This document shows, piece by piece, positions 24,606-64,000 of a stretch of DNA of 64,000 bases (positions are counted from its first letter, which is position 1; each line of letters starts with the position of its first letter). Under the pieces are notes generated by a model that worked only from the letters and a program-made list of their open reading frames with translations, ran no database searches and was not told the origin of the DNA. The position numbers were made by a program, and so were the translations under genes. The stretch lies in the NCBI GenBank assembly GCA_037893245.1, contig JBAIAA010000594.1, positions 310,001-374,000 of the forward strand, given 5' to 3'. Source of the stretch: Crossaster papposus (Eukaryota; Echinodermata; Asteroidea; Velatida; Solasteridae).

Positions 24606-25172
24606 TATTGGGCCCAATTTCATCATTGTGTAACATCGGATCTTAAGCTAACAGCCTGCAATCTGCGCTAACCGAGCTAGCAATGAAATCCAGTGTTAAA
24701 GGTAGTATACACCATTTGCAGATATCGAAAATATTTACTACCGAATTATCAAGAAATATCTTACTCATTTGAAAGTAAATAATGATTCTAGGCATCCAGC
24801 AAAATGATTGCGCTAGATATCTTGTAATTTTTCCGAAAAGTCGAAAAAACAAAGATAACATAAGAAGAACTGCTCGACGCCGGCTAGAAACAAACGCTGT
24901 TTTTCGTGTTTTTCTCGGCATCCATGATTGTAAAACTTCGGACAGCTCAGTTAAACGATATTTACTATAAAATACAACCCCCCAAATCTACTTGTTCATG
25001 ATAATTCAAGCTATTACCAATGGTGTATACTACCTTTAAGCATTCAAGCCTTACTTAATTGTTAGAGGTCAAAATTCCCTGCTAACCCGTAAAATAAGCT
25101 AACCGCATAATTATCTGTAACATTTCGCAGCATATTTTCTGCTAATGATAAGTAGAGTCTTGAAATTGGGCC
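24606..25172. mobile_element. TTTCAT-type MITE split by a TTAA MITE
   Basis: Ends TTGGGCCCAATTTCAT and CTTGAAATTGGGCCCTGG are inverted repeats. The interior contains GCTAA/TTAGC words as in related copies at 36440-36730, 50955-51200 and 63153-63415. A family 1 TTAA MITE (24700-25035) is inserted in the middle. Confidence 0.65.
24700..25035 (+). mobile_element. TTAA MITE family 1, copy D (336 bp)
   Basis: TTAA on both sides (24696-24699 and 25036-25039). Ends AGGTAGTATACACCATTTGC and complement. It lacks the GCGATCGC hairpin present in copies A and E. Confidence 0.9.
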
Positions 25173-25463
25173 CTGGTTTAAGCGCACATTATATGGTGCT
25201 ATGTAATTACATAATCACTTTATGTTACAAACAAAGCTGTAAAAGTACTCCTTTACTTTCTCTACATTTAAATTCCCCTCCCCCTTCTCTTTTTCCCTTA
25301 GTAACCATTGAGGGGGTACTTGTGCATGGAGTCAATACAGTAGGTGGCCATAATGCACCCTCTGTAGTAATATTATATCAGATAGTGTGTGGACATTGCC
25401 GAGTAAAATTACTTTGCTTGACCTACCCGGGACATTCAAGCGACTTTAATCCTATGGAGATGA

Positions 25464-25698
25464 CCTAACCCTAACTCCCAACGTCCTAGTGTAATTTACC
25501 AATACCCATCCTAGCAAATCCCATCAATCTACCATCAATCATATGGCAAACTGTACACACAAACTGTTGGACTCTGATTCCGGAGGTCTGCCTTATAGCC
25601 CAGTGTAAACGACAGTTTAGGGGTCCAGTATCCATCCTAACAGATCCCAACAAAACCTGGTGTTGGAATTTGTCCGGATGGAGATTGTTAGGGTTAAT
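25464..25698. mobile_element. Short element with telomere-like ends
   Basis: Left end CCTAACCCTAACTCC and right end TTAGGGTTAATCC. The interior has repeated ATCCATCCTA / CCCATCAATC words. Same end style as 5913-6327. Confidence 0.5.
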
Positions 25699-25881
25699 CC
25701 ACATTCCATGTGTTACTGCCAACTATTATATAGATTAATTCTGACATCCCCACTGGGCTCTGGGCGTGAACAAAAGAGGGCACTTTCTGAGAGCTGTGTA
25801 GATGGTAAATGCTGCATGCCCATAGTGCAAAGTACCGGTATGCATAACTGAGTTTATTCTGACTGAACAAAGCCCCAGAAT

Positions 25882-26699
25882 CTAAAGCCTAGGTCACACT
25901 TAGACGATTTGGAGGCTTAACTCTCCCAACCTTGATGGTCTTGATAGGTAGGGTGAGGGACAGGGGGAAGGGCGAGGGTTCTGGTAAGGTCGTGAGAGGT
26001 CGGTGAACTTGGTCGAGGTGTTGCCGACTATTTTGAACTTGTCAAAACAATCGGGAGTGATGGACGTCAGTAGTTCTTAAGGAAATGTCGGAGGCGATTC
26101 CGGTAAGGTCTTGAGATGTCAGTGAACTTGGTCGAAGTGTTGCCGACTATTTTCTAACTGTTCAAAACAATCGGGAGTGTGATCGGGAATGAAGGAGGTC
26201 TTGAAAGTTGTTAGGTGGTTGTATACGTGGTTGTGAACATAGTCGGCGGAAGGTGTGCATGGTCGGGTGCTTGAAGAGGCCCTGCCGCCACGCTGTGGCT
26301 TTGCTCTTGGCATCTTTGTAGAATTTACCTAAAATAGCAGATGTACACCTGCTAATATGAATATACGGCAAGATGGGAGCCAAACTTATACTGGTCGTGT
26401 AGACGTCAGAGAAGAACAGATACGTTAGCAGGTCGGCAAAAGACTCGGAAGGGCGGGAAAAGAAGCGACGTTAGTAGATATATGTTGTTGGTATGGAGTA
26501 GTCAGAAAAGGTAGTTATCAAGGCGGCATATCTAGACGGTTTTAAAACTTCATTGGAGCATGAATAAGATGGGAATGGTCATTAGAAGGTCAGGAGCGGT
26601 CCAATTCTCTCCAGACTAAAAACAGGTTGGCAGAGGTCGGTAACTTTCAGGTCGTGGGAGGACGGGACCTCAAGATGGCTAGTGTGACCTACGCTTTAG
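25882..26699. mobile_element. Word-array TIR element (GGTCG words), 818 bp
   Basis: Ends CTAAAGCCTAGGTCACACT and its complement (AGTGTGACCTACGCTTTAG). The interior is saturated with GGTCG/AGGTCG words and holds two tandem versions of TTGCCGACTATTTT...CAAAACAATCGGGAGTG. No coding capacity. Confidence 0.75.
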
Positions 26700-26751
26700 T
26701 GTGAACGTCAGGCGTCGTCAGCAATGTGTTCAAAATTATCTCTTGCAGTGA

Positions 26752-27001
26752 TCTTCCCCCCCCCCCCATTCCCCCCCCCCCCCCCATTCCCCATTCCCCC
26801 CCCCCCCACCCCCCCCCCCCCCCCATTCCCCCCCCCCCCCCATTCCCCCCCCCATTCCCCCCCCCATTCCCCCCCCCATTCCCCCCCCCCATTCCCCCCC
26901 CCATTCCCCCCCCCATTCCCCCCCCCATTCCCCCCCCCATTCCCCCCCCCATTCCCCCCCCCCATTCCCCCCCCCCATTCCCCCCCCCATTCCCCCCCCA
27001 A
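26752..27001 (+). repeat. C-tract satellite (CCCCCCCCATT)n
   Basis: About 250 bp of C-runs punctuated by ATT at roughly 10-11-bp spacing; the minus strand is G-runs of 8 or more separated by AAT. It makes long Pro- or Gly-rich reading frames that are not genes. The G-rich strand has strong G-quadruplex potential. Confidence 0.95.
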
Positions 27002-27003
27002 CA

Positions 27004-28672
27004 TCTCTCCTATTCTTTCAATGAGGGCATATTTGTCCACGGAGCCCAAGTGGTTTGTTAATAGCTGCCTTAGCCAGGCACCAGTTGAAACAACCAGGCA
27101 GCTGCAAGGAAATTGAACAATCTGGCAGTCAAGACTAATTAATACTATTTGTGGATATGTAAGTACGTAACTCGTGTAGCTTTTAAAAAAACCGTGAATG
27201 TAGACTTTTTGTAATTACATGGTTTTTCTAAAATCATGTTTTGTGAAATCATTTTAAACAGGAGCCAATAAACAAGATGCTTTATGTCAGAAATATATGT
27301 TTATTTGATTGTCGCATCATGGTCTATCACTGGCTGACAGGGGTCGTTTTACTATTGGAGTAGGCTGTAAAATTTCACAGTTTCAAATACACCTTGTGGT
27401 CTTTATACTTAATAGGAACAGTATTTCGTCACCATTGTTAACTGTTGTTTCCGTCGAAACAGTTTAAGCATATGAAGTTTTGAAATGCTGAAGGGAAGTT
27501 ATGGCGGCAAAACTTGTATTTGGGTTCGGATTTAGCTTGAGGCGATTCAAGAACCAGACCTGGGTGGACTCGGGTACGGGTACCAGACTGATAATTTTTG
27601 GTGTAATAAAAAACCACTTTTCGATCAAATGACCAATAATCAAGACCAGACACTCTTTATTTTGACAACAACATTGGTTTTATGGGTGAAACTAGGCAAT
27701 TTATGCTAAAAAGTGCTAGGCCGTATTATTGAACGTAGAGGGCGCTGTGATCAACAGTGATTAGGAGATAATTCACGTGTTTAAATATTCTTACAGCTCA
27801 AAAAAAAATCTTTCTAATATTCAATTTTAAGATAAAAGTAAAGTTACTAAAACTACTTCAATAAACGCATGTTTTGCCTGTTTGGGGTACCCAGAAAATG
27901 ACGTCTTACAGCGCCCTCATGCGGCCAAAATTACGGCGCAATGCACTTTGTTTAATCATGTAGAATGAGAAAGTAGAACAACACGTTATCAAACGTTACT
28001 TTGAACATTTCAAAGTTTATTGAAACTTTGAAGAACATGAACAGAAAAAACAATATCAAACGGGGAGAGAGGGTGACCTCAAAACAACAAATTGTTAAAA
28101 GTTCGCTTTGCAAACGGAAAGTTTAGTTTACACCCAACTTGCTTGTTTTACAAAAGTGCAAGTTTATCAGAAATGATTTGCAATTGTGTCTGAACATTCC
28201 GTTTCCCAAAAATCAAAACAGATAAAAAAAAAGGGTTCCAATGTGTTTGGTCTATGACCAATTCGTTGGTTAAACACATTGCCTGTGCAATAAGTCCGTA
28301 TATTAATACATGTAGTCCTAATGCGTTCTGCAGCACACATCACCCCATATATACCGAATATCTCCCTTGCAATGTAGGGCACGTGCGTGAGACACATACC
28401 ATTACCATACCATGTGACCTCGTGAAAAACTCAAAGTACGAGGTCAAATATTTATTGTTGAACAAAATCGTTGGAAAACTGTAAAAGTTTTGACTTTTTT
28501 ACATAAAGGTTTAGGAATAAAATGATTAATAAAATAATAGCCAATTATAATGCAAACAAATTGACAAATAATGCATGTATTAACGTTTGTAAAACCTAAA
28601 AGATATACACATGTACTATGTACATCAGATAATTAAAGCTTTCAAATTAAAGTAATTAAAAACAAGCCTGCG
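27004..28672. other. Gene-free stretch
   Basis: AT-rich DNA with no coding exon that I can support. No RNA gene or inverted-repeat element recognised. Confidence 0.4.
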
Positions 28673-28676
28673 TTAA

Positions 28677-29052
28677 AGGTAGGATACACCATTTTGCAGA
28701 TATCAAAAATATTTACTACCGAATTATTAAGAAATATCTTACTCATTTGAAAGTAAATAATGATTCTAGGCATCTAGCAAAATTGCGCTAGATATCCTCT
28801 AATTATTCCGAAAATTTAATTTTATAAACAAAAATCCGCGATCGCCGGACGGCGATCGCGAAAAAACAAAGATAACATAAGAATAACTGCTCGACGCCGG
28901 TTGAAAACAATCGCTGTTTTCTGTGCTTTTCTCGGCTTCCATGATTGTAAAACTTTGGACAGTTCAGTTAAACGATATTTACTATAAGATACAACCCCCA
29001 AAATCTACACATTCATGATAATTCAAGCAATTACCAATGGTGTATCCTACCT
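28677..29052 (+). mobile_element. TTAA MITE family 1, copy E (376 bp)
   Basis: Left TTAA at 28673-28676; the right flank is mutated to TTTA. Inverted ends AGGTAGGATACACCATTTTG and ..GTATCCTACCT. Contains the perfect hairpin CGCGATCGCCGGACGGCGAT..., as in copy A. Confidence 0.85.
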
Positions 29053-30804
29053 TTTAGTTACATCCTTTTAAATTTTGCAATGTATTCATTCTATAGTCCC
29101 ATCGAGGGAAACTAGTCTGTTCAGCCATCCTGCACTCAATGTAGTCTCCCGATCTAGGCAAGTCATGAAATTTGTCGTGAATATTGACGTTTATTATTAA
29201 CTTCGGCCTTTGGCCTGAGATGCACTCGGACCCGAGCTTAGTGCCAGGCTATTGCTGCGCCATGTTCTACATTTTTTTTTTAATTAAGAAGAAAATTAAG
29301 AAGAACACGGCGTTGCCTTATAGTCTGGTTTTCTGACCCGAGGATCGCTTGCAGTGACTGTGGTGGCCCTGGAGTGTAGTTCTATATAATAGGAATATAC
29401 GATTGCCATTGAGTTTTGATTTCATGAACTCGAATCTACAGGAATATTAATAGCAAGCACGACATGTAGGCCTACCTTTTTCCCCGGCAATACCCTGCAT
29501 GGTGATTGCGAAAATGCCGAGTGTCTGAGAAAAATGTTATCGGAACACACTTTTGATCATAATATGACAGTGGTGTCTGTATATCGCCCTATAATATTCA
29601 TTATAATTCCCGTCATCGTTCGGTCTAGAACAATACAAACATTAGTACGAACGAAAAGGTATTCATAAAGCTAATAGATAAAAAGGTCTACAAATACACT
29701 ACTTGGTTACCTTATTAAAATAACATTTAATGCAAAAAAACACAATGCACAGAAAATTGACGTGTTCCAGCATGATATATAATATATACACTGCTCAAAT
29801 AAAAGATAGGTTGAACTATTTAAACATCGGTCCCAAACTGCTTTCCGATCCCAGCCAAGCACTGTCGACGCAGGCTATCGTGTGATGACACTGTCGAATC
29901 TGGCATGGGCATGGAGCCATGTCATCAGTCCCGACCCGATGTTACCGTCTGTACATGTACGTCATTGCGTTATCTGTGACAGCTTCGTTCGTTGTGGATT
30001 GCCTGTATGCCCGGTTGCTGTGAATCAAGAAACAGTGGGAGTTATCAAATTGACTTCATATAAAACAGATTTCTGTGGATCGGTTGCCAAAGTTGAAAAG
30101 TAAACTTCATCGGCTAAACAAAAACTGCTATCAAACATAAAGACACATTTTGAACAATGGTAATCACCCGAAAACGCACCCACTGAATCAATGTGAAAAA
30201 GAATTACCGAAAGTAAAGCAAATATACCCTTCAAATTTATTCAGATAAAAATGATTTTATAGAAAGAGCAGGAGATAGTTTAAACAACTAAGTTCAGCAA
30301 TGCCTTGTGAAATGCTTATCGGCTTTGATTGTATACAGTAACCCCTGAGCCTAAACTTTAACGGTTGGTCCACGCGTGAAGGGAACAAAGATCGCATTAC
30401 CTTTAAGTAGTCAGAATTGTTGGTAATTTTTTTGTATGGATGAAGTTAATTCTCTAAATTACCGTAATAATAGACCATTGGGGAGCCATTCTATCATTTT
30501 TTTAACCTAGGGAGACAAGTGACATTTGGGGACTTTTGGATGTCTTCGTAATGTCTCGGCCCCTATATTAAGAGGCAAATAAGTTATAATTATTTTGTAG
30601 ATTTTGGTCCCAAATGTACAGATACCAAATTTCGTAGAGATATCATAAGGAAAACTTAGGTGACAGTAAACTTGGGGTTAGGTGACAGTAAAGTTCGACA
30701 ACTTTTGTGCACATGTCAACGGGAATGTCTCCCCAAATGACCCATCAGAATGAGTTGGTTCGAATTCCTTAATTGGCGTTTTTCATGAACCCGTTTCGCG
30801 CTTT
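29053..30804. other. Gene-free stretch with repeat fragments
   Basis: Contains separated fragments of the 14444-14524 double palindrome (near 29176 and 29361) and GGGGAGACA-type words near 30480-30735 resembling those around 14272. No exon recognised. Confidence 0.4.
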
Positions 30805-31023
30805 TTACGACCTACCGTTTACCAGCGGTGTGTGGTTGTGCATCTTGGGTGTAATGTTAACATGGTCCGAGTGCTTTTTCCTGTAGCGCGTCACCAGGAC
30901 GTAGCAGCTGATCAGAACGATGGTGACGATCCACTTTATGACGTCACTACTCCACCACACCCAGCACAATAGGACGTAAGACAGAACGGAGACCCAGCCC
31001 CACTCAAACACTGTCATTTCCAT
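30805..31023 (-). CDS. Candidate small two-span membrane protein (72 aa)
   Basis: From a start in good context (gcaagATGGaa), the ORF begins MEMTVFEWGWVSVLSYVLLC. It has two hydrophobic segments (about 9-26 and 31-46, WIVTIVLISCYVLV), then a basic stop-transfer stretch TRYRKKHSDH and a polar tail ending VNGRS. Segment spacing and charge (basic end after the second span) are what a hairpin membrane microprotein would show. I do not recognise the family. It sits head-to-head with the candidate at 31555. It could equally be one exon of a longer gene or a chance ORF. Confidence 0.4.
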   Translation of the reverse strand: MEMTVFEWGWVSVLSYVLLCWVWWSSDVIKWIVTIVLISCYVLVTRYRKKHSDHVNITPKMHNHTPLVNGRS

Positions 31024-31492
31024 CTTGCTCTATGAGTTGTTTCTCCTATTTTTCAGGTGGCGAGGTGGTTCAAATACTAGTTGCGTGTGCTATCGGAATC
31101 GTGAATCGATGACAGTACACTGTACATGGGGCCGGGGTCTGCCTATATATTTGCCGACTTTTGTTTCGGATTGACCTTTGGAAAATGCGCGAAGTTCAAC
31201 GAGCTTTTGTCTTTCTTATCTCAAATAGTTGTGGTCGGGTTAGTCATCTGAACTTGAGCTTATCAAGATAACCTAACACCGCCGGAACATAATATACGAT
31301 AAACTAAGCACATCAATCTAAGATATATGCGCTTATGTTCAATAAGTGCATGCCTACGTATGATTTACTAAAAAGTAACACATCAAAGTACTGTTATATA
31401 TTAGCTTATACCGGTACTTGCTGTTAATTTCAATTATATACTAAACTTCATGTGAAATTATTACTTTTGAAATGCTTTAATTTTGAAAAAAA

Positions 31493-31500
31493 TATAAAAA
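31493..31500 (+). promoter_or_regulatory. TATA box-like site
   Basis: TATAAAAA lies 55-62 bp upstream of the ATG at 31555, which would give a very short 5' leader. Weak evidence on its own in AT-rich DNA. Confidence 0.35.
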
Positions 31501-31554
31501 GGTCATTTCCAAAGATGTGTCTATTTCAATTAGTAGTTGGTTTGTAATACGCGA

Positions 31555-31854
31555 ATGATGCGCACCGTGAGCGTTGGAACGACGTACACGTGCGCATTGA
31601 CGCTATTTTTGGGTGCGTTCGTTATACAAATGTTATACGAGATCGTTCGATTAGCCATCACATCATCTCCGTGTCTGTCCCAGTGCCAGCCCACCACTGC
31701 CCCAGCTCACAAGCGAGTATCAAATTCGCTCGGTCCTACCGCCCATGTCACCACTTCCGCGGCTCAGCTGAGCTGCGTGCAATTTGAAAAGCCATGGTAC
31801 GATACCCAGAATGCCCTGCGTTTCCTTCTAAGAATTCTCGAGAAGCTCGATTAG
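31555..31854 (+). CDS. Candidate type II membrane protein N-terminus (99 aa)
   Basis: Starts MMRTVSVGTTYTCALTLFLG. A short cytosolic end is followed by one hydrophobic span (about 13-30) and a Ser/Thr/Pro-rich stretch (SSPCLSQCQPTTAPAHKRVS). This resembles the signal-anchor and stem of Golgi glycosyl- or sulfotransferases. No catalytic domain follows before the stop, so if real it is a first exon (a possible donor is gtacga at about 31797) or a small protein. The local GC content is higher than its surroundings. Confidence 0.35.
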   Translation: MMRTVSVGTTYTCALTLFLGAFVIQMLYEIVRLAITSSPCLSQCQPTTAPAHKRVSNSLGPTAHVTTSAAQLSCVQFEKPWYDTQNALRFLLRILEKLD

Positions 31855-34080
31855 CGTTTCGCAGCGCCCAGTGCAGTATAGGCACAAGCGAAGGTCTTTG
31901 GTGGTTGCCCAGGTGTAATGACGTCAGCGATTGTAATGGACAGGTTTATGGCACAAATTACTGCCAATTAATATTAACGGTGTTCAATTTGATTTAATGC
32001 CCAGTGTGTTTGCTATTTAAAGTCCCGCCCTAAACAACATTTGGCCTTTTCGTTAACAAATGTCTTGGCGAATACGTACATGTACATGGCAGCGTTCGTT
32101 CTCGATCGTATGTTCGCCACTCCAACTTTTTTGTGTGCGCATTCTACTGCGCATGCCAATGCCGTCGAAAATGGGGCCGGGGAGTACTTGTGCAGGGAGC
32201 CCATACTTGTCAGCAGCGCACCCAGCGTATGGGCTTTTCATATTAAGATTCAGTGGTATTGTTATAATACTTTGAAAAGTTTTGATCGCTGTTATTCAAC
32301 TTTTACGAAACGACGAAGTAAAAAAGTGGTGTAATTGTTGGTTACTTATCGGGTTTCTTCCCCTTAAAATTCCTAACGAATCTGTACTGCAATTTTGGTT
32401 AATCAGCTTTGGATGGTACAATAATATGATTGATTTAAATCTTTGGGCTCTGACAAGACAATGTTAATTCCTTAATTGAATTTACAGGCTAATCTGGGAA
32501 ATGAGAAAGAACTCGACAATGGACGTAATCTTCACAGTTTGAAGCAGTTGCTACTATTTTGTTTTATTAAACTTAATCCAGTATTATAATAGGCTACTCT
32601 GCTGGCAAATAATATATTTATACATACAATTGCCAATGTGGTGGTGTGCAGTTGAATATAAATGTGGTTCAAAATGTAATGAAAAATGGATTTGTAAAAG
32701 ACTATGATCCAACCTTAAATATATCGTTACCCAACCTCGGTTTCAAATTGCAAAACCTGGGGACGAGCTTTGTTTCAATCAAAAACAGAATGGCTCCCCA
32801 ACGTGCAAATGTGTTGGTTTCGAGCAATCGAGGAGGTAGCCAGACTTGGTGAAGTTTGAATTTGAACCGAGGTTGACTTCTACAATGCTCAGGTCTAAGG
32901 TGAACTCTAACATATTTGTTGGATAACATATTTTAACCTCATGTTCATTCAACGGCAATGCAATATCCGTCCACTGTTAAAAATAAAAGAAGATACAGTG
33001 ACGATTTATGTTAAAATATGCTGTATACAGAGACTTGTTAACTACATTTAAACTTATAAATTTGTTTCCTATGTGAATCATTATAATCTTCCAATACTGT
33101 GCATGAACCTCTGGAGTATACTCGCACATTGGCTGGGGTGCAAACGAGCTAGCAAGTACAGACGTAACTCAGGCACAAACAAAAACCACAGAAACGAGCA
33201 AGGAAAACAGCTATTTGGGGGTATGTTGCTTAGCTGAAATTAACACCGCCCACTCTGGCCTTGAAGACACAATACAGGTTCAATACTGTTTAGCTAATTG
33301 CAAGTCAGGTCACTGTCAATTATAAAATCATATCTATTTGTAAAAGTACAACAGTTATAAATGTGTATCTAGTGGTGTTGAATTCAACAGTCAAGATTTT
33401 AGCCATGTATACGTTTATAGTAAGCTCCTACTCGGAAGAAAGAAATATTAGTAGAATATTTTTTCAATACTCAAAGGCATGATTCTGATTATTTGTATAT
33501 ATCTGTTTTCGAATATTTTAATAATTTTAAAGATTAGACTTATATACAGTTCATTGTTAATCTTGTTAATGTTGTAGTGCTTATACAGTATAACTGATGT
33601 TTCGAAAGCTATATCTTGTGTTCAACAGCAAATGAAATGCAGGTGCTTTATTAGGTTGGTTACGATGAATGTCTGTGTTATTACTTACAACCAAATTACC
33701 AATAGCCTCTAAAACGCAAGTGCATCCCGCCATATTTGCTGCCAACTTGGATGGCACCCAACCACATTATAATCTTCGGGCAGTCAAATTGGTACTCTAA
33801 AGATTGAAAGTCAGTCAGACTGTAGAGGGCGCTGTACTCTTGACAACTAATATGGCGGGATAATAAAAACCTGGCCATTCGGACGCGGTAGTAGTACGTG
33901 GGTGCGGTGAAAGAAAACTTGTGGATGTCAAAGCCCTAAATGCACCAACCTGTACAAACAAAAAGTGGAAGAAAAAATGCCCAATTCAATTTTCTCAATA
34001 GATTACAAACCGATTTATTATGCCCAGCACGATATGAGACCGAGGGCCTTCCCCCTTAGTCCCCCATACCCATAGACTAT
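31855..34080. other. Gene-free stretch
   Basis: AT-rich, with short ORFs only. The CpG-containing segment 32050-32230 carries overlapping ORFs on both strands but no recognisable domain. Confidence 0.4.
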
Positions 34081-34091
34081 GTGTCCTCTGT

Positions 34092-34291
34092 TTACATCTA
34101 CATGTATATTCAAATGTGCCCGTCAATATGCGCACGCATCGTGTTTTACATAAATTTGGGAAGAGGCGACATCAGAGGTCACATAATTCAAAGGTGGTCT
34201 GACCTGTGGCGTTACTCCTCAACCAAAATTGTATGCAAAACACGATGTGTGCGCATTAAGACGGGCACATTTGAATACAGATGTAAACACG
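34092..34291. mobile_element. 200-bp fold-back MITE
   Basis: The left arm contains TATTCAAATGTGCCCGTC and GCGCACGCATCGTGTTTT. The right arm carries their complements (AAAACACGATGTGTGCGC, GACGGGCACATTTGAATA) in mirror order. Arms are about 60 bp; termini read GTTTACATCT / AGATGTAAAC. Confidence 0.82.
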
Positions 34292-34423
34292 TGACGTCAG
34301 AGGGTGCATCGTACTATCTAGACTATTGTTACCTAACGCACCCCTCTAAAAACCTAAAAAGATTCCCTGAGAAATCACAACATTCCGCAAGCACAATGAT
34401 CCTGACCGCCACAAAAGAGATCG

Positions 34424-34451
34424 GGGGGGGGGGGGGGGGGGGGGGGGGGGG
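34424..34451 (+). repeat. Poly-G tract
   Basis: Uninterrupted run of about 28 G. Similar homopolymer C/G tracts occur at 35158-35205, 45970-45992, 54145-54163, 58120-58134 and 61939-61968. Confidence 0.9.
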
Positions 34452-34813
34452 TGGTTCCCTCTGTCACATATCTTGCTTTATATGACTTATACTATTTACT
34501 TTTCTAGTTTGGGTCATTGAATAACAGCTTAACATTTTGCCAAACTTTAGCAGTAAAATATAAAACGTGTCCCTTTTGAGGACATTTTAATATTCTGGAG
34601 GCATAACACTTCGGGACGTAGGCCTATTCTTAAACGAAGATCGCGCTGTATCTACTGCGTTTTGGGAAATAATCAGTAGGCCTATAGGGAATCAAAGGTA
34701 ACTCGCATCAGCGGTATAAAAAAGGGGCACTACAAATTGTCCCCAGTCTATCGACTATGAACATGGAATATCTGGGTCTTGTACCTTGACTATACTTTTG
34801 TAGCGAGTCGCGT

Positions 34814-34982
34814 CTACGCCTTGTTCTCAGCTGGCGTGTCCACTGATCGCCTTCTCTTTCCTGGTCCACCACTCCCGAAGCGGGAATTGCCGTTAGCCAG
34901 CATGCGGGATAAAGCGTCCTGTCCGACTGCCAGTTGTGCGCAGCCGCTGAATGATGAGCAACCCGAGCTCGACCGTTTTAGC
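34814..34982 (-). CDS. Calcitonin-type precursor exon 3: mature peptide
   Basis: The acceptor is acgtttccag. Encodes LKR, then SSSGCSSFSGCAQLAVGQDA and the remainder of the peptide through FGSGGPGKRRR, then a tail ending AENKA and TAG. This is the exon that identifies the family. The minus-strand frame here also extends upstream of the acceptor without a stop, but that part does not resemble a precursor. Confidence 0.95.
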
Positions 34983-37516
34983 CTGGAAACGTAAAAATAT
35001 AAACGGCGTATCTGTACAGGGTGGCCCATACAACAAAAAATCACAAGCATACTTCCATCCACTACCCCAAGGCCCAAACAGACTACCTATGGATGGAGAA
35101 TCTTTCTGTAAGAAAAATGATACCAAGATATATCGATATTAAGTAAACTAGTCTCTACCCCCCCCCCACCCCCCCCCCCCCCCCCCCCCACCCCTCCCGC
35201 CCCCATCCTGTCGGGGCTTGCTTTCTGCACCTCTTTACGAGTTCTCATCCAGATTTGAGGATTTTTCTTTAGGGAAAACCTTAGTGTACCAGCAAGTTTT
35301 AAGAGATCGTTGTGTTCTAAAGTAACATTACAAAAAACAAAAACAACACACATTATTTTTGACAGCGAAGTGGTTTAAGGTGTCTTATGTGTTCAAACTG
35401 TTATTCAAACGAATGTCTCCATCGTCTTTTCGATTGCATAACCAAAATACACAGCATTTAGATTTGGTTACCATGACCCTCATACTCATAGCCTTGTGTG
35501 CATTTATCTGCCGCGTTTTCCCCGAATAGAAATATCGTCGAATCATGTGGTGCACATAATTATGCGCAGTTGGAATACCGAACTGGCTAATTTATTGTCA
35601 CGTTTCCATTCTCATCGTCTTTTTAAAATGATTATTTATTCAAATTGATTAACTCACATTGTCTGGAACTCGTTGCTTCTGGAAAACGTGAGTAGAATTT
35701 CGTTGTATGCGTCTACTTTGTCTGCTAACTCTCTTAAGTCGTCGCCTTTCAGTGGGAATGCAAGGTCTGCTTCGTTTCTGCAATGAAATAAAATGGAGTT
35801 TTAGACTCTTGGTGGCAGCAGACAGCCCCTTTAAAAAAAAACTACTGGTGGCAGCAGACAACAAGCATTTTTAGGAAGACACATTGGTCGTGTCCGAATT
35901 GCTGGCTTTGGCTATGACTTCGGCCGTTGCTATGCTGTTGTTATGGGCGGACAAGATCACCAACCATAGAACAAGGTTGAAGGGAAAACTGGGTTAGATT
36001 TCAAGTGCCCTGAAAAATACAAAAGAACCGCTACGCTGGCTTGTTTTTAGTGACTTCCTTTTAAAACTACTGGTGGCAGCAGACAACCGGTCATTTCCGT
36101 GTTCATTGAATGAAGGTGATTCAGCGTTGTCTTTGGAGCGTCGCGCGCCACGATATCAGCTATGAAATTAATGGTTTACAGGCACTCTCTTCATACCATT
36201 CCCGAGAGGAAAACCCCTGTACAATATTGTGACATCAGTCACCCGTCTATCTGAAAGGTAAGTCATGATTTTAGTTTTCATGATTTAATACATGGTGTGT
36301 TTTTTGTAGGCTAATTTAACTTGCGAAAGTTTGCAGTGGCTATCGTTACGGCAGTTTCTAGTTGATGATCCTATTCCCTGACATGCCCAGCCGGACAACC
36401 ACTCTTGGAACCTGACTATCAATCTAGTCTGATTTCAAGAACGATATCCAATTATTATTGTTATTGTGAGGTCGGTTAGCTTGTAACCTAGGGCTAATTT
36501 CATGTAACATGTAAGCAACAAGAAAATGCTTAGCATGAAAACTCTCTCTTGACAGAAACAGGGTGGCAAACCAAATTTTCTGGTGATGTTTATTGTTTGT
36601 GATTGGTATTCATGCATCTCTTTTTTGCTTAGCATGAAAAGCACAAAGTTTTGGCTGGCAACCTGTTTTTACTGAGAAAGATTGTTTGTGCTAAACAAAT
36701 TTGGGTGCTTACATGTTTTATGAAATTGGCCTCAGATCGACTGCGTTTCGGATGGCAGGGCAATTGTAAAGTTAAAGGGAATACACAGCATTTGCAAATC
36801 CCCCCCCCCCCAAAAAAAAAAAAAAAAAATGGAAACAAAATGACCACATTATCACAAAATACTTTACTAGACTGCAGGGAATGGCAGTCTGAAGCATCCT
36901 GTAAAATAATGGCTCCTGGTGTGCTGACATTTTTAGGTAAAGTGGTATTTTTGTATCATTTTCCAACTTAACGCTGGTCGGCCGACCAGCGTTGCAATAA
37001 GTTACACATCTGTAAAGGTGTACAATTAACTGAATCTCTAAACTTAAAATGAACAAATTGCTCCGGTTCATCTTAAGTGGGGTCAGGGTACCTGACTAGA
37101 AAAACATGATTTTTTTCAGCATTTACGAACCCGAAACGTCAAATAAGTCAGTGTAACAATTCTTGCAGGCGGATCTAGCTTTTTTTTGTTAAGATAAAAG
37201 CTCAAGGTCAAACTATTTAATTTAATTTTTAGGAACAAATATGATTTTACAAAAATAGTATTTAGACTTATAGAATGATATAACGCGCAGCGCAGGGCAG
37301 CCCCAAGCATGGGCTAAGTTGACACTAAACGCCCATTTAGAATAAACGCGCCTGAAATAACAATGCGGGTATTAAACAAATTTCATGAATGTCAGTATAA
37401 TTTATTATTCGATAATGTCAATGACTGTTTTATATTTACCTTGATAATGAGGCGGCTGTGGCGATAGTGTAGAACGTACACAGAACTGCTAGTGTTAGGG
37501 TCACCGTTGGCTTCAT
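34814..37516 (-). CDS. Calcitonin-type neuropeptide precursor, three exons (whole gene span)
   Basis: Joined minus-strand exons 37516-37440, 35777-35658 and 34982-34814 give a 121-aa secreted precursor. Residues 1-21 are a signal peptide (MKPTVTLTLAVLCTFYTIAT). Next comes an acidic spacer to about residue 66, then the dibasic site KR (68-69). The mature peptide of 37 residues (70-106) follows. It has Cys74 and Cys80 in the ring GCSSFSGC (C-x5-C, as in calcitonin), and FGSGGP before Gly107 and the cleavage site KRRR (108-111). Gly-Lys-Arg after Pro predicts a C-terminal Pro-amide, as in calcitonin. A short acidic tail follows. Both introns are GT-AG and phases match exactly. The peptide is expected to act on a class B G-protein-coupled calcitonin-type receptor; in echinoderms such peptides affect muscle. 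No second calcitonin exon was found nearby. Confidence 0.93.
35658..35777 (-). CDS. Calcitonin-type precursor exon 2: N-terminal spacer
   Basis: Acceptor tttcattgcag and donor AAT|GTGAGT. Encodes NEADLAFPLKGDDLRELADK followed by VDAYNEILLTFSRSNEFQT. It is acidic and helical with no internal dibasic site, so it is probably not itself cut into a peptide. Confidence 0.9.
35810..36100 (+). repeat. TACTGGTGGCAGCAGACAAC repeats
   Basis: The 20-mer occurs exactly at 35843-35862 and 36068-36087, with a near copy (TTGGTGGCAGCAGACAG) at 35809-35825. Between them, 35935-36035 resembles the complement of 56025-56092 (AAGTGCC..., GAACAAGG). Lies in calcitonin-type intron 1. Confidence 0.6.
36440..36730. 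mobile_element. TTTCAT-type MITE (GCTTAGCA words)
   Basis: Begins near GGCTAATTTCATGTAACATG and ends near TTTATGAAATTGGCCTCAG. The interior repeats GCTTAGCATGAAAA and TGCTAAAC words. It belongs with copies at 24606-25172, 50955-51200 and 63153-63415. Lies in calcitonin-type intron 1, upstream of exon 2. Confidence 0.55.
37440..37516 (-). CDS. Calcitonin-type precursor exon 1: signal peptide
   Basis: Encodes MKPTVTLTLAVLCTFYTIAT plus AASLS and two bases of the next codon. Donor AAG|GTAAAT. The hydrophobic core and small residues (ATA|A) fit a signal peptidase site near residue 21. Confidence 0.92.
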
Positions 37517-37529
37517 GGTTGGGAATTGA

Positions 37530-37537
37530 TGACGTCA
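37530..37537 (-). promoter_or_regulatory. CRE-like palindrome TGACGTCA
   Basis: A perfect consensus CRE octamer 14 bp upstream of the calcitonin-type start codon and downstream of the TATA box, so probably in the 5'-UTR. CREs are common in neuropeptide genes. The exact octamer also occurs inside the palindrome at 14470-14499. Confidence 0.5.
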
Positions 37538-37648
37538 GTACCAGTGATCTGCGCAAACGAATCAGTACAGATAATTGATCCGAACAGTATGTCATTATTA
37601 CCTCCTCTGGTACTATGGCCAGTGTCAACAGTGTTGCAAGACGCACTG

Positions 37649-37655
37649 TTATATA
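37649..37655 (-). promoter_or_regulatory. TATA box of the calcitonin-type gene
   Basis: Minus-strand GGTATATAACAG lies about 135 bp before the ATG with no in-frame ATG between. This would place the transcription start near 37625 and give a 5'-UTR of about 110 nt. Confidence 0.55.
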
Positions 37656-38033
37656 CCATGGAGCTATTCTGATCAGTATGTGATCAGTATGTTGTTCAAA
37701 GTTTGATCTTTGAATTGGTAATTTTTTGCTTAAAAGTTGTCTTTTCCAGAAAATCTTTTCTTTTGTATTCGATGCGATAAACTAGTTTTCGTCGTTGCAT
37801 TCATGCCAGACATACTTAATAGTTGAACTCGGTGTCGTTAGCTTAGCCAACAAACCTCAAAACTTGATTTTGCAACCTCAAAACTTGATTTTTCTTTCTA
37901 CTTCTGACTTTAGAGAAAACACGCCCCCAAAGTAAGTCCCACATTCAAATCATACAATTGTTCATTTACCAGAACTTTATACGCAAACAAACTACCCAGC
38001 CCATATACAAATGATGTTCTTTATAGAGAAAAC

Positions 38034-38414
38034 ATGGAAACACTTAATTCTGGGACTGTTTGGTGCGCGGTCTTCATCTTACAAACCACGACCGGTTTTG
38101 CTATTTATAACAGCGTGCGCGGGGAAAACACTGTACCGGTGAGGCCGGGTTACAACCGGCGGGTGCCTTGGCAAGAACACCGGTACGGTCCGTATCGGAT
38201 CGATATTTTAACACCCAGCTGGGCCGAGCTCAAGTGTCTGAGGGCCGCGCTGCAAGGTTATGGTGTAAGCGCAGGAGGGCATTCGCGCCTAACGTGGAGA
38301 GGCCGATCGTGCTGCAGCATCCGTAACGAAAGAAACACGAGTGGGGAAAGTGAAGTCTGTACAACCCACGCGTGTCACGAATTATATACAGGAAGCCGTG
38401 AGGTCCGAGATTAA
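38034..38414 (+). CDS. Candidate secreted protein ORF (126 aa, or first exon)
   Basis: Starts METLNSGTVWCAVFILQTTT (ATG in good context, aaaacATGg) with a moderately hydrophobic leader that could be a signal peptide. It continues with RPGYNRRVPWQEHRYGPYR and ELKCLRAALQGYG. At 38265 the sequence GGT|GTAAGC is a good splice donor, so the Cys-rich remainder may be intronic. It is GC-rich relative to its surroundings. The family is unrecognised. It lies head-to-head with the calcitonin-type gene, with start codons 517 bp apart. Confidence 0.35.
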   Translation: METLNSGTVWCAVFILQTTTGFAIYNSVRGENTVPVRPGYNRRVPWQEHRYGPYRIDILTPSWAELKCLRAALQGYGVSAGGHSRLTWRGRSCCSIRNERNTSGESEVCTTHACHELYTGSREVRD

Positions 38415-38847
38415 CAATCAGGGAGGTCGGTTAGTAACGTGATTGGACGTAATACAACGATTGGTGGCAGTAAACACTATAGTCTCTAGCTCTATAAATA
38501 AAATACAGTACGGATTAGAATAGGCCAAATCAATCTCGATGACAGAATAGCTAACAATTATGTGCCCTATTTAATAATAGCTTGAGTTTCTCTCAAGTAG
38601 GGCAGTCTTCTGAAATAAATCTGTATTTCTTTGCAAAACTACATCGATCTTATCTTTTGAAATGTACTTCCCTTGCCCGCCTGAAGAGTACAGATATAAC
38701 AAGTTAGCAGGGTAAGCCGACTTTTACTGTTTACCAGTACGTGAAATCTGACTGCAGTTTATGAAAGCGTGTACGTTGAGCTGTACATTTTGTTTGTTTT
38801 ATTTTCCGGTATCTCATCCTTATGTGACACACAGAGAATATTTAATA

Positions 38848-39222
38848 ATAATAAGCAGTTCTTATATCGCATGTATCTACCAAGACTGGTAATCAAGGCG
38901 CTTTTTGATTTCCAAAGCCAGGTTAATGAAGTTTTATGAGAATAAGAGACCCATTATGTAGCACCTTTGTGAGAGTTTTTACAAGGTACTGCGGCGCACT
39001 TTGCAGCCACTGCCAGGAACCCCTCCTCTTAGCGATAAGTGTTACTGGGTTATTTTACGTGCATTACACAACACACGGGACCTACAGCTTTACGTCCCAT
39101 CCTTAAGGACGAAGCAATAGTGGTCAAGACCAAGTCATGTCAAGACCGGGACTCGAACCCACAGTGATCAGAAACACCAGGGCACGAGTCCGCGTGCTCT
39201 TAACCGCTCGGTCATAACATCA
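38848..39222 (-). mobile_element. tRNA-derived SINE, minus strand
   Basis: On the minus strand the head reads GACCGAGCGGTTAAGAGCAC, followed by the B-box GGGTTCGAGTCCC. The body ends in GCGATATAAGAACTGCTTAT and an (ATT)n tail. The head resembles a Leu/Ser-type tRNA. Confidence 0.82.
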
Positions 39223-42200
39223 TCTCAACTTTAAAAAATGGGGCGACTAAGTTCACCAGAAGTGGATTTATGAATCTACGTCACACATTTCTGAATGTGT
39301 GATCTTGAATGGCTTCTGAGCTTAAAATCACAATCGAAGCCTGAACAAGCATCATAATCTAGTAAAACATTAAAATAACAAAATGCTATATGCTTGGAAT
39401 AATATCGTCAGAATGTCGAGGGATAAACGCTAATGCATTGCATGTTAGTTCATTAATATGTTTTATATAACGCCCAAGTAGATCCTTGTCATTTTATTGG
39501 AGGATTGTAGGTCACGCGGCATTCATTCAGTCAAACCATTACTCGACTTACGTCACGACCGTGTATTTTGGTTCCATTCACCGTGCATTTTCGTCCCATC
39601 CTTTTAATTAATTATTGCACGCTATAGGAGATGCACGCGTTTTTGTACACAGCAGTACAAAACGACTGCATGTAATAATTGTGTAAATTTGGTTTATTCT
39701 TATAGTTTTATCCTTCAATCAAATGACAAAGATATACTTGGGTGTTATATAAAACAAAATAATGAATGCATTGTGTTGTAATCGTGCAATGGTGAGAATA
39801 TTCGCATCCATTGAAAGGTGAAATGTTCTATTCAACTCGGTTTCGTGGAACCTTGCATCTTTCTATTCATGAAAAACATGTTCACTGTTGCACCTAAAAC
39901 ATCCATTATTTGTATAGTATTTCGAGACTCTCTGTGGCTCAGCAAGACATCTAATAGTCGTGCCTGACGCATCATGTTTGACTTGATTGAGAACTTGCTT
40001 CTCCTATAGACACACTTTCGGCTCATGTGAGTTAAAATGCCAAGATGTGTATAGTTCCATCACTAATGACTCTTTACGTGAGCAAAATCGTTCGGCCCAG
40101 CCTTCCGTCTGTTTCTAGAGTCCACTTCGCGTTTATTTGCCAGCTGGTTACAGGACCATTTAGTCGTGGATTGAAGGGCCCTGAGTGGGGCTTAAGGTAG
40201 TGGGGGCGGTGTCGCGTTGCATGGGATGCGGCGCACCTGTGGTGCACACGTAGCCGTCTGCGCGCCCTTGGTCGTCTTTGCATAAAATACTAAAGTTGCG
40301 CTTAATCTGGATCTATTCGCTGGTCCCAGATGACCACATTAGTACCATCTATGACTCTCTGACTGACGGGCAGACCATAATGGGCTGACGTATTAACTGA
40401 CTGGGTTGATTGTCAATATTTGTATCTTCGACCGGTTAATAAAAAAAGCCGGGCAGAGTTTTTGTTTTTTGCATAGGATTACCCTGCAACGTCTTTGGCA
40501 CTCCATATATAAAACAGCCAAAACAATTTTTAACAATCAATCTTGAAATTATGCAATAAGCTGTATTAAAAGTCAGCTATTTAATCATATATGGAGCGAT
40601 AAAGGAACAAAATCTCACAGAGTGTGGTGACATTGTGACCGAGATAAAAAGAGAAATATGACGAGGTAGAATGAAAACCAATTCTACAATTGCTGCTTGT
40701 AATATTACACTTGGCGACTGCAAGTTAGAGATTAAGAGCAATGTTTGACAAGCTCGTCCCTTTATACATCAAACCTGTGTGAATTAAGTTCACCAGAAAT
40801 GGTTTGTATAAAAAAAATTGCGTCAGCAAAGAAAACCCACAAGACCCAAACATGTGCATTATGTTTTTTGTTTTCCACTATAAACAGGAAACGTAATATC
40901 AATTGAGCAAAACTTCAACACAGTAGGCCTTGTTGTTAAACATCCTATTTAACACTTTGACCAATTTTGTAGCATCAAAATAAATGAAAATATATTTACT
41001 TCTATTCTATTTTCCCCCGAAAACACAAAACACTTACACAGTAATTGCGGTCTTTGTACTATTATTTCGTATGCAGGCGCAATTATAAGATTTATTGTAT
41101 AACATTTGACGTGGCGATCATTACCAAAATCCCCATAGTAAATAAATGAAATATTAACTGTAATTGTTCCTAGTTCAATAAAGCAAAAAGCCACTAATGA
41201 AACGAACTGTGCCTTTTGTCTTTTTGATAAGCTGAACAATTTCCGCTCCGTTTGTGTTCCAAGTTGTGAATATTGTAGTATCAATCAGTCACCCAAATGA
41301 CGATTAAGCTCTTGGTATTGAGGCAGGGACCTTTGTTCAAAAAATGATTAAAAGAACATTATTGTTCGCTCATAATAATTTAAGTAGCCCTGCCGCCTCA
41401 AAATGAGCGGTTGGAGTTGGCTCATTTACATTACAAACTAGAAAGAGGCGATGAATATTAAGCCTTTGCACCCACCGTCGAGCTTGGAAGCAAGTTGAGT
41501 GGTTATATGTTATTCACAAGTAGTAGCACCAACAATTTGCAATTTTGTATATAATGTTGCAGTCATTAGGCAATACTATCTTTACAACGTGCTTGAAATG
41601 GTTTTTGTCTTTGCATATTGCTTGGTAATAGTCTACACGACTGTGTCCTGTGTAACTGTATTTGCAATCTTTATTGGCATTTTAAATGTATTTTGGGCTA
41701 GCCTTTTGGGTTTGAGCTAACTATTATTATTATTATTATTTATGTGGTACTGTTTTTATTTATGGGGTATGTGTATTTTCCGTCCTCCATGGTATTACGA
41801 TTAGCGGCCCACCGTGATGGATATAAATGTGCTGGCTTATTCAAGCGTTTAGGTTGGACTCGACTATCAATCGTTTGTATCCCTGTGTTAAATTAACAGT
41901 AAAGTATATAGTTGACTGCTTATAGAAACAGCGCTTTTGTACATCCAGATCGCCGCTTGTGCTTTTCCAATGTAATTGCTTAATTTGTCACAGAGACACT
42001 CGTGTTGTTACACACAATAGTACATACAGTGTACCTCCCCTCAGAAAGCATCAGCATATGTATTATTCATGAACTGATAAACGAAGCGCGTCGTATGCGC
42101 ATTTCAAATTGTCGTTCAATAATGGATGTACATGTACATGTAACACGAAGTCCGCTGATGCGTTCTGTGAGCGCAATCAATTATTTGATGGCTGGTTGGG

Positions 42201-44157
42201 AAGAGGGATCGACCAACTAAAAACCGTTGAAAGGGCGAGCGTTATTATCACCGTACACTGCACCTAGTTTGCACTCGAGTTTCTACCGAATTGTTTTTAG
42301 GATTCGATCCAACTTGTCGATTGTCCTTATAGTTTAATACTATAGAATAGTTAAAAGGTAACTCCATACACAAACAAACCGGGACAAGCACACGTACCTC
42401 CGCCTGAAGTGAAAACTACCAATACCAATTGATGGAAAATCCTTCTAGAAGAAGAAAAATTATACTAAGAAATTCCGATTTAGTCCAGCAGTTTCCGCTT
42501 TAGATCCTATGTTGGTATCGTTCTTCTTTCAAAAGACTCCCAATCCGTTATGCCTATACCAATTTGGCATTAGTTTATAGCGAAAGTACTCTTTGCTGTT
42601 GTTTTTTGTTGGAGGGGGCAACCTGTATAGATGTGTAAATGTGTAAACTTGTATCCAATACTCTTGTATCGTTGTATGTATTTGTTCTTGTACTTATGTC
42701 AATTTTCTTTGTATTGACATCAGTATTATTAATAGTTGTTATGATTGTTTTCCGTTTAAAGATCCACTCTTGCTTGTGTATTTCACTTTATCCAATACAT
42801 GTAATAAATAATAATACATAATGACCCCAATGAAACCAGTTTGAAAACTATTTTGGCATATCCTGGGGAAATACATTTTATAAATAACTTCTTTGGAATT
42901 GGGAGAGAACAGGAGAGACGCTATTTACTGTATAGTAAGTAGAATAACTAAGTCGGGTCAATTTCTTAGAAATTCATGTACTAAAACAGCTGCTTGTAAA
43001 GGTTCAAGAAATACTTTTTGAACATCCGTTTACATTGTAAAAGCATCGTGAACGTTGCTGGTTGCTAAAGTGTTTAGAAATATAGCATACTTAAATTTCG
43101 CGTCATTCAGCGAAGCGCAGTCTTTCTATCAAAATTAGTTTTTAACATTTTAGTATAGAACATAGCAGTAATTAAGAAATGTAATAGTTTAACAATGATT
43201 TGTGTAAATGTATACAAAGGGCATTTTTTTCGTAAAGCCTGCAATTTACGAGTGCATAGATATTATTTATAACAAAATGTTAACTTGTGGACTATTATCA
43301 GGCCCTCTTTGTTCAGACTTAACAAATATTCGGAAAATATCGTGGAACAATATCAAGTTATATTTAAAATATAATTTTTGAGAGTGACCGGTGTAGCATG
43401 ATTTTGTAGACGTACTCGTAATACGGCCTCATTGGTAGTATTGCGTATGCCTAATGAACTGATGATGACCATGATAATTAGAAGAGTGACCGGTAACGTT
43501 AGAGGGTTTAACCAATAAGAGTCCGATTTCCACAGGAGTCTGGTTTGTATACGACACCTATACTTAAGTTCTCGTTAGGTCTCGGCAATTCCCGTTGCGA
43601 GTGCGCGGGCGTGAATACTGGTGTAGGTTGCACACATTAAAGTTATTTTGTTCATTATTATTTGTGGAATCTATAGGGGAATTTGATTCAACTTGCCCCG
43701 AAGCGTCACATTCTAAATTTAATTTGCTTGGCTCAATTGCTTTTGCAACTGAGTTTCTTTGACATTTTGGAAAACAAAGTGACTTTCAGAGGGAAGTTAA
43801 TTACTGCTTCGGGCTGCAGCGCTGCCGTATTGATGTATACGGTACATTATGAACAATGTGAGGTGAATGGGAGGAACATTCCGTAGGGCTTATAATGATA
43901 ACAAATCCCGCGCGATCAAATACATGCATATAGGCACTCAGCCTCAGCCCACACGGCGCCCCTAGGGTGGAATCCCAACCGCTGACATCTATACAGTGTG
44001 TTTAAACAAATACAAACAAAATATAGGAGAATTCTACACATAAAAGGTTCAACCGACATAGATAATAGTTTGAAAGATACACCTTTTCACTTTAATATGA
44101 GATCTGTCCAAATCTGAAAAATATTTGACAGAATTATGAGTAATTTCACAAGAGACA
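39223..44157. other. Gene-poor stretch
   Basis: No exon with recognisable homology. 41499-41720 gives a hydrophobic ORF that simply reflects T-rich DNA. A GC-rich island at about 40070-40280 has no domain. Near 42400-42480 is one copy of the AAACTACC..ACCAAT..GATGG unit seen in tandem at 57900-58160. Confidence 0.4.
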
Positions 44158-44161
44158 TTAA

Positions 44162-44547
44162 AGGGATCGTACACGTTTGGTAATTGGAACCCATTGTTTT
44201 GTTTCAATGTAGTTATAGATAGGGCCTATATACCATAAAACTAACCTATAACAAATTCATTTCAAAAGGTGGTAGCGATTTTGAGATATTGCCGAAAATC
44301 TGGAGCGGTTATGTCCACGCCGGAAGAATAATCTGCATTGGAATACACAGTTTGAGAAACGTCACTGCAGTAACGTTTCTCAGATTCATTTTTTGGGGGA
44401 TAAAAAGTGATATCTTTTTTTTTCCATAACCGCAGTAAAGTGAACAATTTCAAAAAATGCATACTATCCAAAGCTGCTCTACTTCTTACCAAGTAAGTTT
44501 TTATTGCCATTATTTTTTGGAGTAATTACCAAACGTATACGATCCCT
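44162..44547 (+). mobile_element. TTAA MITE family 2, copy A (386 bp)
   Basis: TTAA at 44158-44161 and 44548-44551. Ends AGGGATCGTACACGTTTGGT and ..ACGTATACGATCCCT. The centre has an internal hairpin GAGAAACGTCACTGCAGTAA. The inverted copy is at 55111-55676. Confidence 0.9.
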
Positions 44548-45000
44548 TTAAATAGACCATGGGATGGGAGAAAGTTTTCAATTTTAGGTATTATTAGGAC
44601 TAAGGTAGCCTGTCGCTGTGTGAATAATTGCCTGCCCTACACTGCAAAGGCTGTCTTTAGCGGGTAAACAACATTCATGTTTGTGAATATGTTTACATGC
44701 TAAGATTAGAATGTTTAGCACGATGATGGATAGTATTTAGCCATTGGTCATTAATGTTTAGGAATTTGACGTTTAGCTGCTAATCACCAAAAGTTCATCC
44801 ACATTGCAACACTTTCACATCCAAACAAAATCTAAAAACTTGGTCGCATGGTCAATTTGACGTCTCTTGGATAATTACTCGTAACTCTGTCAACATTCTT
44901 TCAAACCATCTACGTTAGTTGCACATGGTTAGCTCTTCCTTAAATCGTGCTGGGTATACAACTCCCGCCACCAGTGTACTAGTATAAGTCAGTCGATACA

Positions 45001-45640
45001 CCGATACAGTAAAACCTAAGTCACATTTGCCGCGTCGGCCGTGGGGTCTAAAATATCAATAGCAATTATAGAGCCGCCGCAGCATTCCCACGGTCACATA
45101 CTGTAGCAGTCACATGTTAGGGTAGCCGCACGGCGTATTTTGAATTTGTGGAGACAGAAAACCTGAGGCGGCCGTACGGGAGCCGTGCGTGGGCTTGCGT
45201 TGCCCGCATGGTGTGCCACGTACCACAAGGCCACCGTACGGGCACCGTAGGGTCGCATTAAGGCTGCCCTGGTCCGCCAGTGGAATTCCTGCGGCCGCCG
45301 CAATTTTGTTGGGGTCCGCAAAAGTCAATTGTAATTCATAAGACCCCAGGACAGCCGCACGGCAAACGCAAGGCCACCGCACGCCCGACGTATGGTCGCC
45401 GTGGAACCGCTCTACGGCATGGCTACGGCGTGTCTAATTGCTACGGCGAACCTAGAAATGAAAACAGTTATAACTCCGCGCTATATTCCCACGGCGACCC
45501 CTACGGTCTGTAAAAGATATAGAGATACGCCCTAGGGCAACCCTGAGGCCACTGCAGATCCTCTGCGGCCGCCGCAGGGGGTTACAGCCGCCGTATCCTA
45601 GCCGTAGAGCTTAAGCCACAGCCACAGCCCACCATGCCCA
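45001..45640. mobile_element. GC-rich word-array element (CCGTAGGG/GCCGTACGG words)
   Basis: A compositional island packed with words such as GGCCGCCGCA, CCGTACGGG, GCCGCACGGC and their complements. It begins after CCTAAGTCACATTTGCC, which resembles the ends of the elements at 25882 and 61139. The right end is not clear. The ORFs here are by-products of the arrays. Confidence 0.5.
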
Positions 45641-47124
45641 TAGCTTGACGCGTGCCTTGCCGATCGATCACGTGCATAGTAGGCCTATTAATATTATAAT
45701 GCCTCTAGATTAGGAAATGACCCCAAATTACCTTTCTCTTTATTTGCGGTATTGGGAGTCGGATATATAATTATCTTAACAACACCACTTATTCGTGACT
45801 GTGATTAAAACCAGGCTGACAATAGAATTGGGGCTTAAAAGTGAAACAAATGTAAAATCAACAAAATGTGTGCGGTAAACTATATGCTGAAGTGGATAAT
45901 TTGTGTCTGACAAAATGGCGATAGGCCTAATTTGTCGTACCTTAAACTCATAGATTGATCCCTTTTCGGGGGTTGGGGGGGGGGGGGGGGGGACTGAATT
46001 GGTCTATTAGTCAGCTAGTCAGGTATAAGGGCCATGGGCTGTATCTATAGGACCAGCACAAAATGGCGAATCGAGCGTGTGATCTCGCATAAATCATGTC
46101 AGGTTACCAAAAACACACTTGTTTAGCCGCTCAGTGTCATTTACTTGTCATAGCTGCCAGGTTTGTGATAGTAGGATTAAGGTAGTGTCTTTCACGCTAT
46201 AGGGCATGGCACGCAACGCTGTCACATCCTTGCTTATTAATCTACTGTCTGTTTGCTCCCAACGGAGCTGAAAGTGACAAAGAGCCCCTCGAGCTCTCTC
46301 AGGTAACAAGTAGCATCTCAAGTGTGGCCGTAAGATGTATCTAACTGTATCTGCTCTCAGATTTAAGAGCAGTATAACGGAACCCAAATTGTGGAATTAC
46401 TCACATTTGCACTAGCATAAAGATGTGCATTCCTGTATTTTGTTTAAACCACCTATTACTTGACTTACTAATGGGTGATGGAACAGGCATGTCTTCTGAT
46501 GTAGGACTTGTAGAAAGCGAAACACCGTAAATAAATTATTTTCTTTATTAAAATACACCTGTCGTTAACTGACAAAGTTTCCAATGGACTCTCTCTGTCA
46601 GTTGCGACATAATGGCTTTAACTAACTTTACCAAAGTTACCAAAAAGTTACCAAAAAGTATCTTCAAGACTAGTTACCCTTTATCATTAAAGCTATGTAT
46701 GAGGATCTATTGAAGTTACCGAAATAGTGACAGGAACCATGCTCAAAATGAAGGTAGGACTGGTAAAAAAACAACCTATGTGAAATTCCAACATTATTCC
46801 GCCTGGAAAGTACATCGTAGAAGAAGAAAGCATCTATTGATAGTGTTTTTAAAAGGGCGTGCAAAGATGTAATTTTTTGTACACATTATAGCAACGGAAT
46901 GTTGTTAGGACACCCAATCATTGTGTGCCTTTATACTTTTGTATGTTTTGTCGATGGAAGTGTATAGTATCTCCTGAGCTAACAATTCAGAAAGTAAAGT
47001 TGTAATGCGATCAACTTGACACTTGAGCAATTGTTGTCAATTCAAAATACTTTTGTTTTTTAATCCACAAATTCTGCGTCTCAATAATTGCATATTATGT
47101 TGCAGAAACCTGCATCGAGTTGAC
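45641..47124. other. Gene-free stretch
   Basis: Contains a G-tract at 45970-45992. No exon recognised. Confidence 0.4.
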
Positions 47125-47128
47125 TTAA

Positions 47129-47478
47129 AGGTAGGATGCACCATTTGCAAATATCAAACAATTTTACTACCGAATTATTAAGGCATATCTTACTTATTTG
47201 AAAGTAAATAATGATTGTAAGCATCCAGCAAAATGATTGCGCTAGATACCCTGTAATATTGCATGTTCCGAACAAAATGACGGCGATCGCAAACAAACCA
47301 AGAACAACATAAGAACCACTGCCTGACGCCAGTTGAACGCCGTTTTTCTTGCTTTTCTCAGTATCCGTGATTGTAAAACTTCAGATAGGTCAACTAAACG
47401 ATATTTTCTATAGAATACAACCCTCCAAATCCACCCATTTATGATAATTCAAGCAATTACCAGCGGCGTAGCCTACCC
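47129..47478 (+). mobile_element. TTAA MITE family 1, copy F (350 bp)
   Basis: TTAA at 47125-47128 and 47479-47482. Ends AGGTAGGATGCACCATTTGC and ..GTAGCCTACCC. The GCGATCGC hairpin is partly deleted. Confidence 0.87.
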
Positions 47479-47482
47479 TTAA

Positions 47483-55106: not shown

Positions 55107-55110
55107 TTAA

Positions 55111-55676: not shown

Positions 55677-55680
55677 TTAA

Positions 55681-58160: not shown

Positions 58161-58211
58161 AACCTTTATTACGAATGTATTAAACTCCTTACTTTTATAT
58201 TTGTTTCGCAG

Positions 58212-63962: not shown

Positions 63963-64000
63963 TAAGACGGCTCTTAAATACGATAATGACACATCGAGGA

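Follow-up and report, generated by a model that had tools for sequence, protein, structure and literature searches.

Gene structure and splicing of the minus-strand locus

The window, by which we mean the whole 64-kb stretch of Crossaster papposus DNA that was analysed, holds on its minus strand a complete gene of three exons with an intact frame, splice borders and processing sites. The coding exons lie at 37516-37440, 35777-35658 and 34982-34814 (77 + 120 + 169 = 366 bases, including the stop) and join into a single open frame, from ATG to TAG, that encodes a precursor of 121 residues. Both introns have GT-AG borders and interrupt the frame in phase 2; intron 1 spans 1662 bases (35778..37439) and intron 2 spans 675 bases (34983..35657), with donors AAG/GTAAAT and AAT/GTGAGT and acceptor ends TTTCATTGCAG and ACGTTTCCAG, respectively. 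The coding part of exon 1 carries the signal peptide and the start of a spacer and ends in phase 2, exon 2 (phase 2-2) is taken up by spacer sequence that separates signal peptide from hormone, and the coding part of exon 3 carries an LKR site, a 37-residue peptide, a Gly amide donor, KRRR, the tail and the TAG. All three are supported by the joined frame and by tblastn, and exon 3 additionally by a profile search. Within intron 1, the segment 35962-36063 matches the inverse of 55984-56085 at 82% identity, and intron 2 contains, at 35158-35204, a run of C on the plus strand.

A first-pass annotation had proposed three minus-strand exons that join in phase, and its coordinates and junctions proved exact. 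Its statement that no single frame shows the gene is true of the gene as a whole, but the hormone with both cleavage sites can be read within one open frame, 34814-35077 on the minus strand. Exons 1 and 2 are indeed shadowed, as it had said, by longer minus-strand ORFs in other frames that cover them (37392-37646 and 35649-35864).

The precursor and its predicted peptide

The precursor comprises a hydrophobic N-terminus, a spacer, KR at positions 68-69, a stretch of 37 residues, Gly107, KRRR and a short tail. The signal peptide, encoded within 37440..37516, is probably MKPTVTLTLAVLCTFYTIATA, its 21-residue length being borrowed from PpCTP of the starfish Patiria pectinifera rather than predicted by a program. 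Cleavage sites K68R69 and K108R109 bracket the 37 residues and the amide-donor Gly. The predicted mature peptide, SSSGCSSFSGCAQLAVGQDALSRMLANGNSRFGSGGP, corresponds to residues 70-106 (34862..34972 on the minus strand, hand-counted from the stop at 34814-34816); with a disulfide and an amide, its computed monoisotopic mass is 3559.6 Da. The layout described in the first pass, running from a probable signal peptide and spacer through the KR site and a 37-residue C-x5-C peptide to GGP-G-KRRR, is present in the translated joined frame. The tail that it had called acidic, SVDTPAENKA, has one Asp, one Glu and one Lys and is barely so.

Independent placement of the exons

Using Patiria miniata LOC119743440 and Acanthaster planci LOC110975074 as tblastn queries against the window, with the earlier gene model playing no part in the input, we obtained nine matches at E <=1. 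Six of these fall, in exon order, on 37516-37439, 35779-35657 and 34993-34817, in agreement with the splice borders to within a few codons and with best E values of 7e-11, 2e-17 and 2e-27 for exons 1, 2 and 3; the remaining three lie elsewhere in the window (E 0.025, 0.15 and 0.66). Since the three exons are recovered in order, a chance origin of the gene model is excluded. Exon 1 is 92% identical to the P. miniata protein and 88% to that of A. planci, and exon 2 is 83% and 76% identical, respectively.

A search of the joined precursor against about 5.8 billion proteins gave two matches at E <=1 among 15 candidates. Both are starfish proteins of the order Valvatida that match over the full length: P. 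miniata LOC119743440 (85% identity, 100% coverage, E 8.7e-59) and A. planci LOC110975074 (80% identity, 100% coverage, E 2.7e-55), each labelled only 'uncharacterized protein'. These matches by themselves point to a starfish source, probably within or close to that order, and the window sequence is distinct from those of P. miniata, A. planci and P. pectinifera. The alignment of the three proteins is gap-free at both exon junctions, and the A. planci protein has one extra residue in the ring region relative to the window precursor.

Assignment to the calcitonin-type family

Cai et al. 2018 (PMC6002491) describe deuterostome calcitonin-type peptides by an N-terminal pair of cysteines with a usual spacing of 4-5 residues, a C-terminal Pro primed for amidation, a Gly fifth from the C-terminus and an amphipathic helix in the core. 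The predicted peptide has its Cys pair as C5-x5-C11, a C-terminal Pro with an encoded Pro-Gly before the dibasic site (GGP-G-KRRR; amidation is predicted) and, fifth from the C-terminus, the first G of ...G-S-G-G-P. It is also similar to the experimentally identified members ArCT and PpCT. For the core helix, 11-residue windows starting at residues 13-23 give a helical hydrophobic moment of 0.35-0.57, a value calculated from sequence only.

We searched six-frame segments of the window with at least 15 codons between stops. ArCT (with G-K-R appended) matched exon 3 at E 2.6e-11, and PpCT (with G-K-R appended and one Gly added) matched it at E 3.4e-18. When the segments were searched with a profile built from five starfish peptides, among them that of the window, exon 3 scored E 3.7e-26 and the segment ranked next E 0.73. 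By Pfam scan, the precursor matched no family up to E 10, and thus not PF00214, the calcitonin/CGRP/IAPP model; the P. miniata and A. planci relatives are likewise without a Pfam domain. A PDB sequence search of the precursor returned one match, GldL at E 0.34, which is probably due to chance.

With similarity and layout, rather than a tree, as the basis for orthology, we put the probability at about 0.97 that the gene encodes a starfish single-peptide calcitonin-type neuropeptide precursor orthologous to ArCTP and PpCTP. The description of its product as the species' calcitonin-type hormone is supported within this one 64-kb window by the family features and by the PpCTP-like ORF size, residue count and cleavage-site numbering. 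Genes of this type are known and already recorded from other starfish; here we have a new species' copy, with its exons mapped exactly on the genome. Its precursor goes unrecognised by Pfam, and its two closest database relatives are named only 'uncharacterized protein'.

Comparison with PpCT and ArCT

PpCT was purified from P. pectinifera as a relaxant of the apical muscle, and its precursor PpCTP was cloned (Cai et al. 2018, PMC6002491). PpCTP and the window precursor have in common a 366-bp ORF, 121 residues and the sites K68R69 and K108R109, and the two peptides share a length of 38 residues counting the Gly, cysteines at C5/C11 and a VGQDALSR core. By eye, 8 of 37 residues differ when PpCT is taken with the Gly that its mass requires: the window peptide has SSSGCSSF for SGTGCTQF, AVG for KVG, RML for RVL and ANGNS for ADSNS. 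PpCT as printed in section 28 of the paper comprises 36 residues, for which a mass of 3597.7 Da is computed; if GGP replaces GP, the count rises to 37 residues and the mass to 3654.73 Da, where the paper gives 3654.7 (theoretical), 3655.1 (measured) and 38 residues including the Gly. The published mass and residue count require FGSGGP, and either the printed version or its text copy seems to have lost one Gly.

For ArCT of Asterias rubens, mass spectrometry in the radial nerve confirms both the disulfide and the amide (PMC6002491). ArCTP and ArCT share with the window gene a single peptide, the C-x5-C spacing, a Pro-amide (predicted here) and dibasic sites; ArCTP differs in its 114-residue precursor, its 39-residue peptide and another N-terminus.

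One peptide or two

In sea cucumbers and brittle stars, as described in PMC5627052, PMC12638048 and PMC6586643, the gene carries a second calcitonin-type peptide on an additional exon, which splicing either includes or skips, and published asteroid precursors are described in PMC12638048 as having a single peptide. The A. japonicus gene has a peptide on its last coding exon, as does the window gene; AjCT2 ends in FGSGGP-amide like the window peptide, whose amide is predicted (PMC12638048), and the AjCTP2 transcript has three coding exons, the same number as found here (PMC12638048, PMC6586643). The third exon of that gene, which encodes AjCT1, has no counterpart in the window gene by profile or by enumeration of cassettes, hence no two-peptide form.

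A second calcitonin-type exon was found neither by motif scan or profile of the window nor by enumerating, in introns 1 and 2, AG/GT-bordered in-frame cassettes 60-300 bases long. None of the 11 open cassettes in intron 2 holds C-x4-7-C. Three of 46 do so in intron 1, all in one nested set at 36292-36423, and in none of the three does a basic residue follow a Gly; a stricter search for GT[AG]AG donors left no open cassette in either intron. Since the profile was made of starfish peptides only, a much diverged second exon could escape it. Of the two motif-scan matches in the window, one is the hormone; the other, a C-x6-C stretch ending in LGKK at 10376 on the minus strand, is without a Pro-Gly end and was dismissed by eye.

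These results make it very improbable that the gene is alternatively spliced in the holothurian or ophiuroid manner, as published for those classes (PMC5627052, PMC12638048): the profile shows no second calcitonin-type exon, and the in-frame cassettes with C-x4-7-C all lack a Gly and then a basic residue. What speaks for such splicing in the gene itself is the symmetry of exon 2, which, with 120 bases and phase 2-2, could be skipped in frame to leave signal peptide and hormone, but the hormone would be unchanged by the skip. The single-peptide gene is, with about even odds, directly comparable with the sea cucumber AjCTP2 form, which likewise has three coding exons with the hormone on the last; no CT1 exon was detected in intron 2. 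That no second peptide exon is found in this starfish gene bears on the origin of the two-peptide form, treated as an open question in PMC12638048. The gene fits either history, a single origin with loss or two origins; compared by genomic intron phases across all five echinoderm classes, such loci could tell whether starfish and urchins lost a two-peptide gene of single origin or whether that gene has two origins.

Likely processing and action of the hormone

By reference to its orthologs, the precursor would be made and secreted by neurons. As in the family at large, a convertase would cut it at K68R69 and at K108R109-RR, Gly107 would be converted to the amide on Pro106, and C5 and C11 would close the disulfide ring. 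The resulting 37-residue peptide would act on calcitonin-type, and possibly also PDF-type, receptors and may chiefly relax body-wall and tube-foot muscle; by analogy with its relatives, it is most likely a muscle relaxant.

As the search was confined to 64 kb of the genome, one may ask whether the window gene is instead a duplicated or silent copy, the true hormone gene lying elsewhere. We consider this very improbable: the gene is intact in its frame, splice borders and processing sites, the protein search gave one full-length relative per species (85% and 80%), and the published asteroid precursors are of the single-peptide kind (PMC12638048).

Upstream elements

A CRE-like TGACGTCA, the palindromic cAMP-response element, occurs at 37530-37537, 13 bases upstream of the ATG. 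With nine copies in the 64 kb, as against about one by hand estimate from base composition, we give it no weight as a promoter element. Further upstream, TATATAA at 37649..37655 on the minus strand is a possible TATA box. This reading is weak, because the motif is so frequent in the window (13 times on the minus strand and 12 on the plus strand). If transcription started about 30 bases downstream of it, the 5'UTR would be close in length to that of PpCTP, which has 117 bases (PMC6002491).

Neighbourhood of the gene

The same window carries plus-strand exons that appear to belong to a ZDHHC17/HIP14-type ankyrin palmitoyltransferase, at 2493-2828, 4900-5229, 8491-8850 and ~13600-13790. The second was assigned by alignment, the last by a DHHC motif near 13.7 kb and the others by eye. 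Among the best 60 of 427 matches to the ORF at 4900-5229, one 98-residue stretch aligns with the ankyrin domain of ZDHHC17 at 181 bits, and a higher total is reached by six ankyrins, whether designed or natural, each of which has several matched stretches. The calcitonin-type gene thus shares the window with ZDHHC17-type exons; a conserved linkage with the vertebrate ZDHHC17/13 region is a lead only, and a literature search on calcitonin, ZDHHC13 and synteny found no paper. At 9797-10552 on the minus strand, a 252-codon open frame has by eye the look of a THAP-like zinc finger (...HFVQFPRD); it apparently lies inside a ZDHHC17 intron and is possibly transposon-derived.

Rfam (at gathering threshold) and ARAGORN returned nothing in the window. 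The surroundings were scanned with Pfam on translations in which X replaced each stop, without a positive control. The scans covered all six frames of 37001-52002 and 49001-64000 and four of the six frames of 20001-35002 (the three minus frames and one plus frame). They gave three matches (E 0.024-0.088), none of which reached the cut-off of its family, and the six X-joined frames of 37-64 kb, read without a positive control, held nothing at a family cut-off. A 19-base tandem repeat at 15387-16122 (38.7 copies, 96% matches) keeps long plus-strand frames open; the longest of these, of 381 codons, is likely a spurious ORF.
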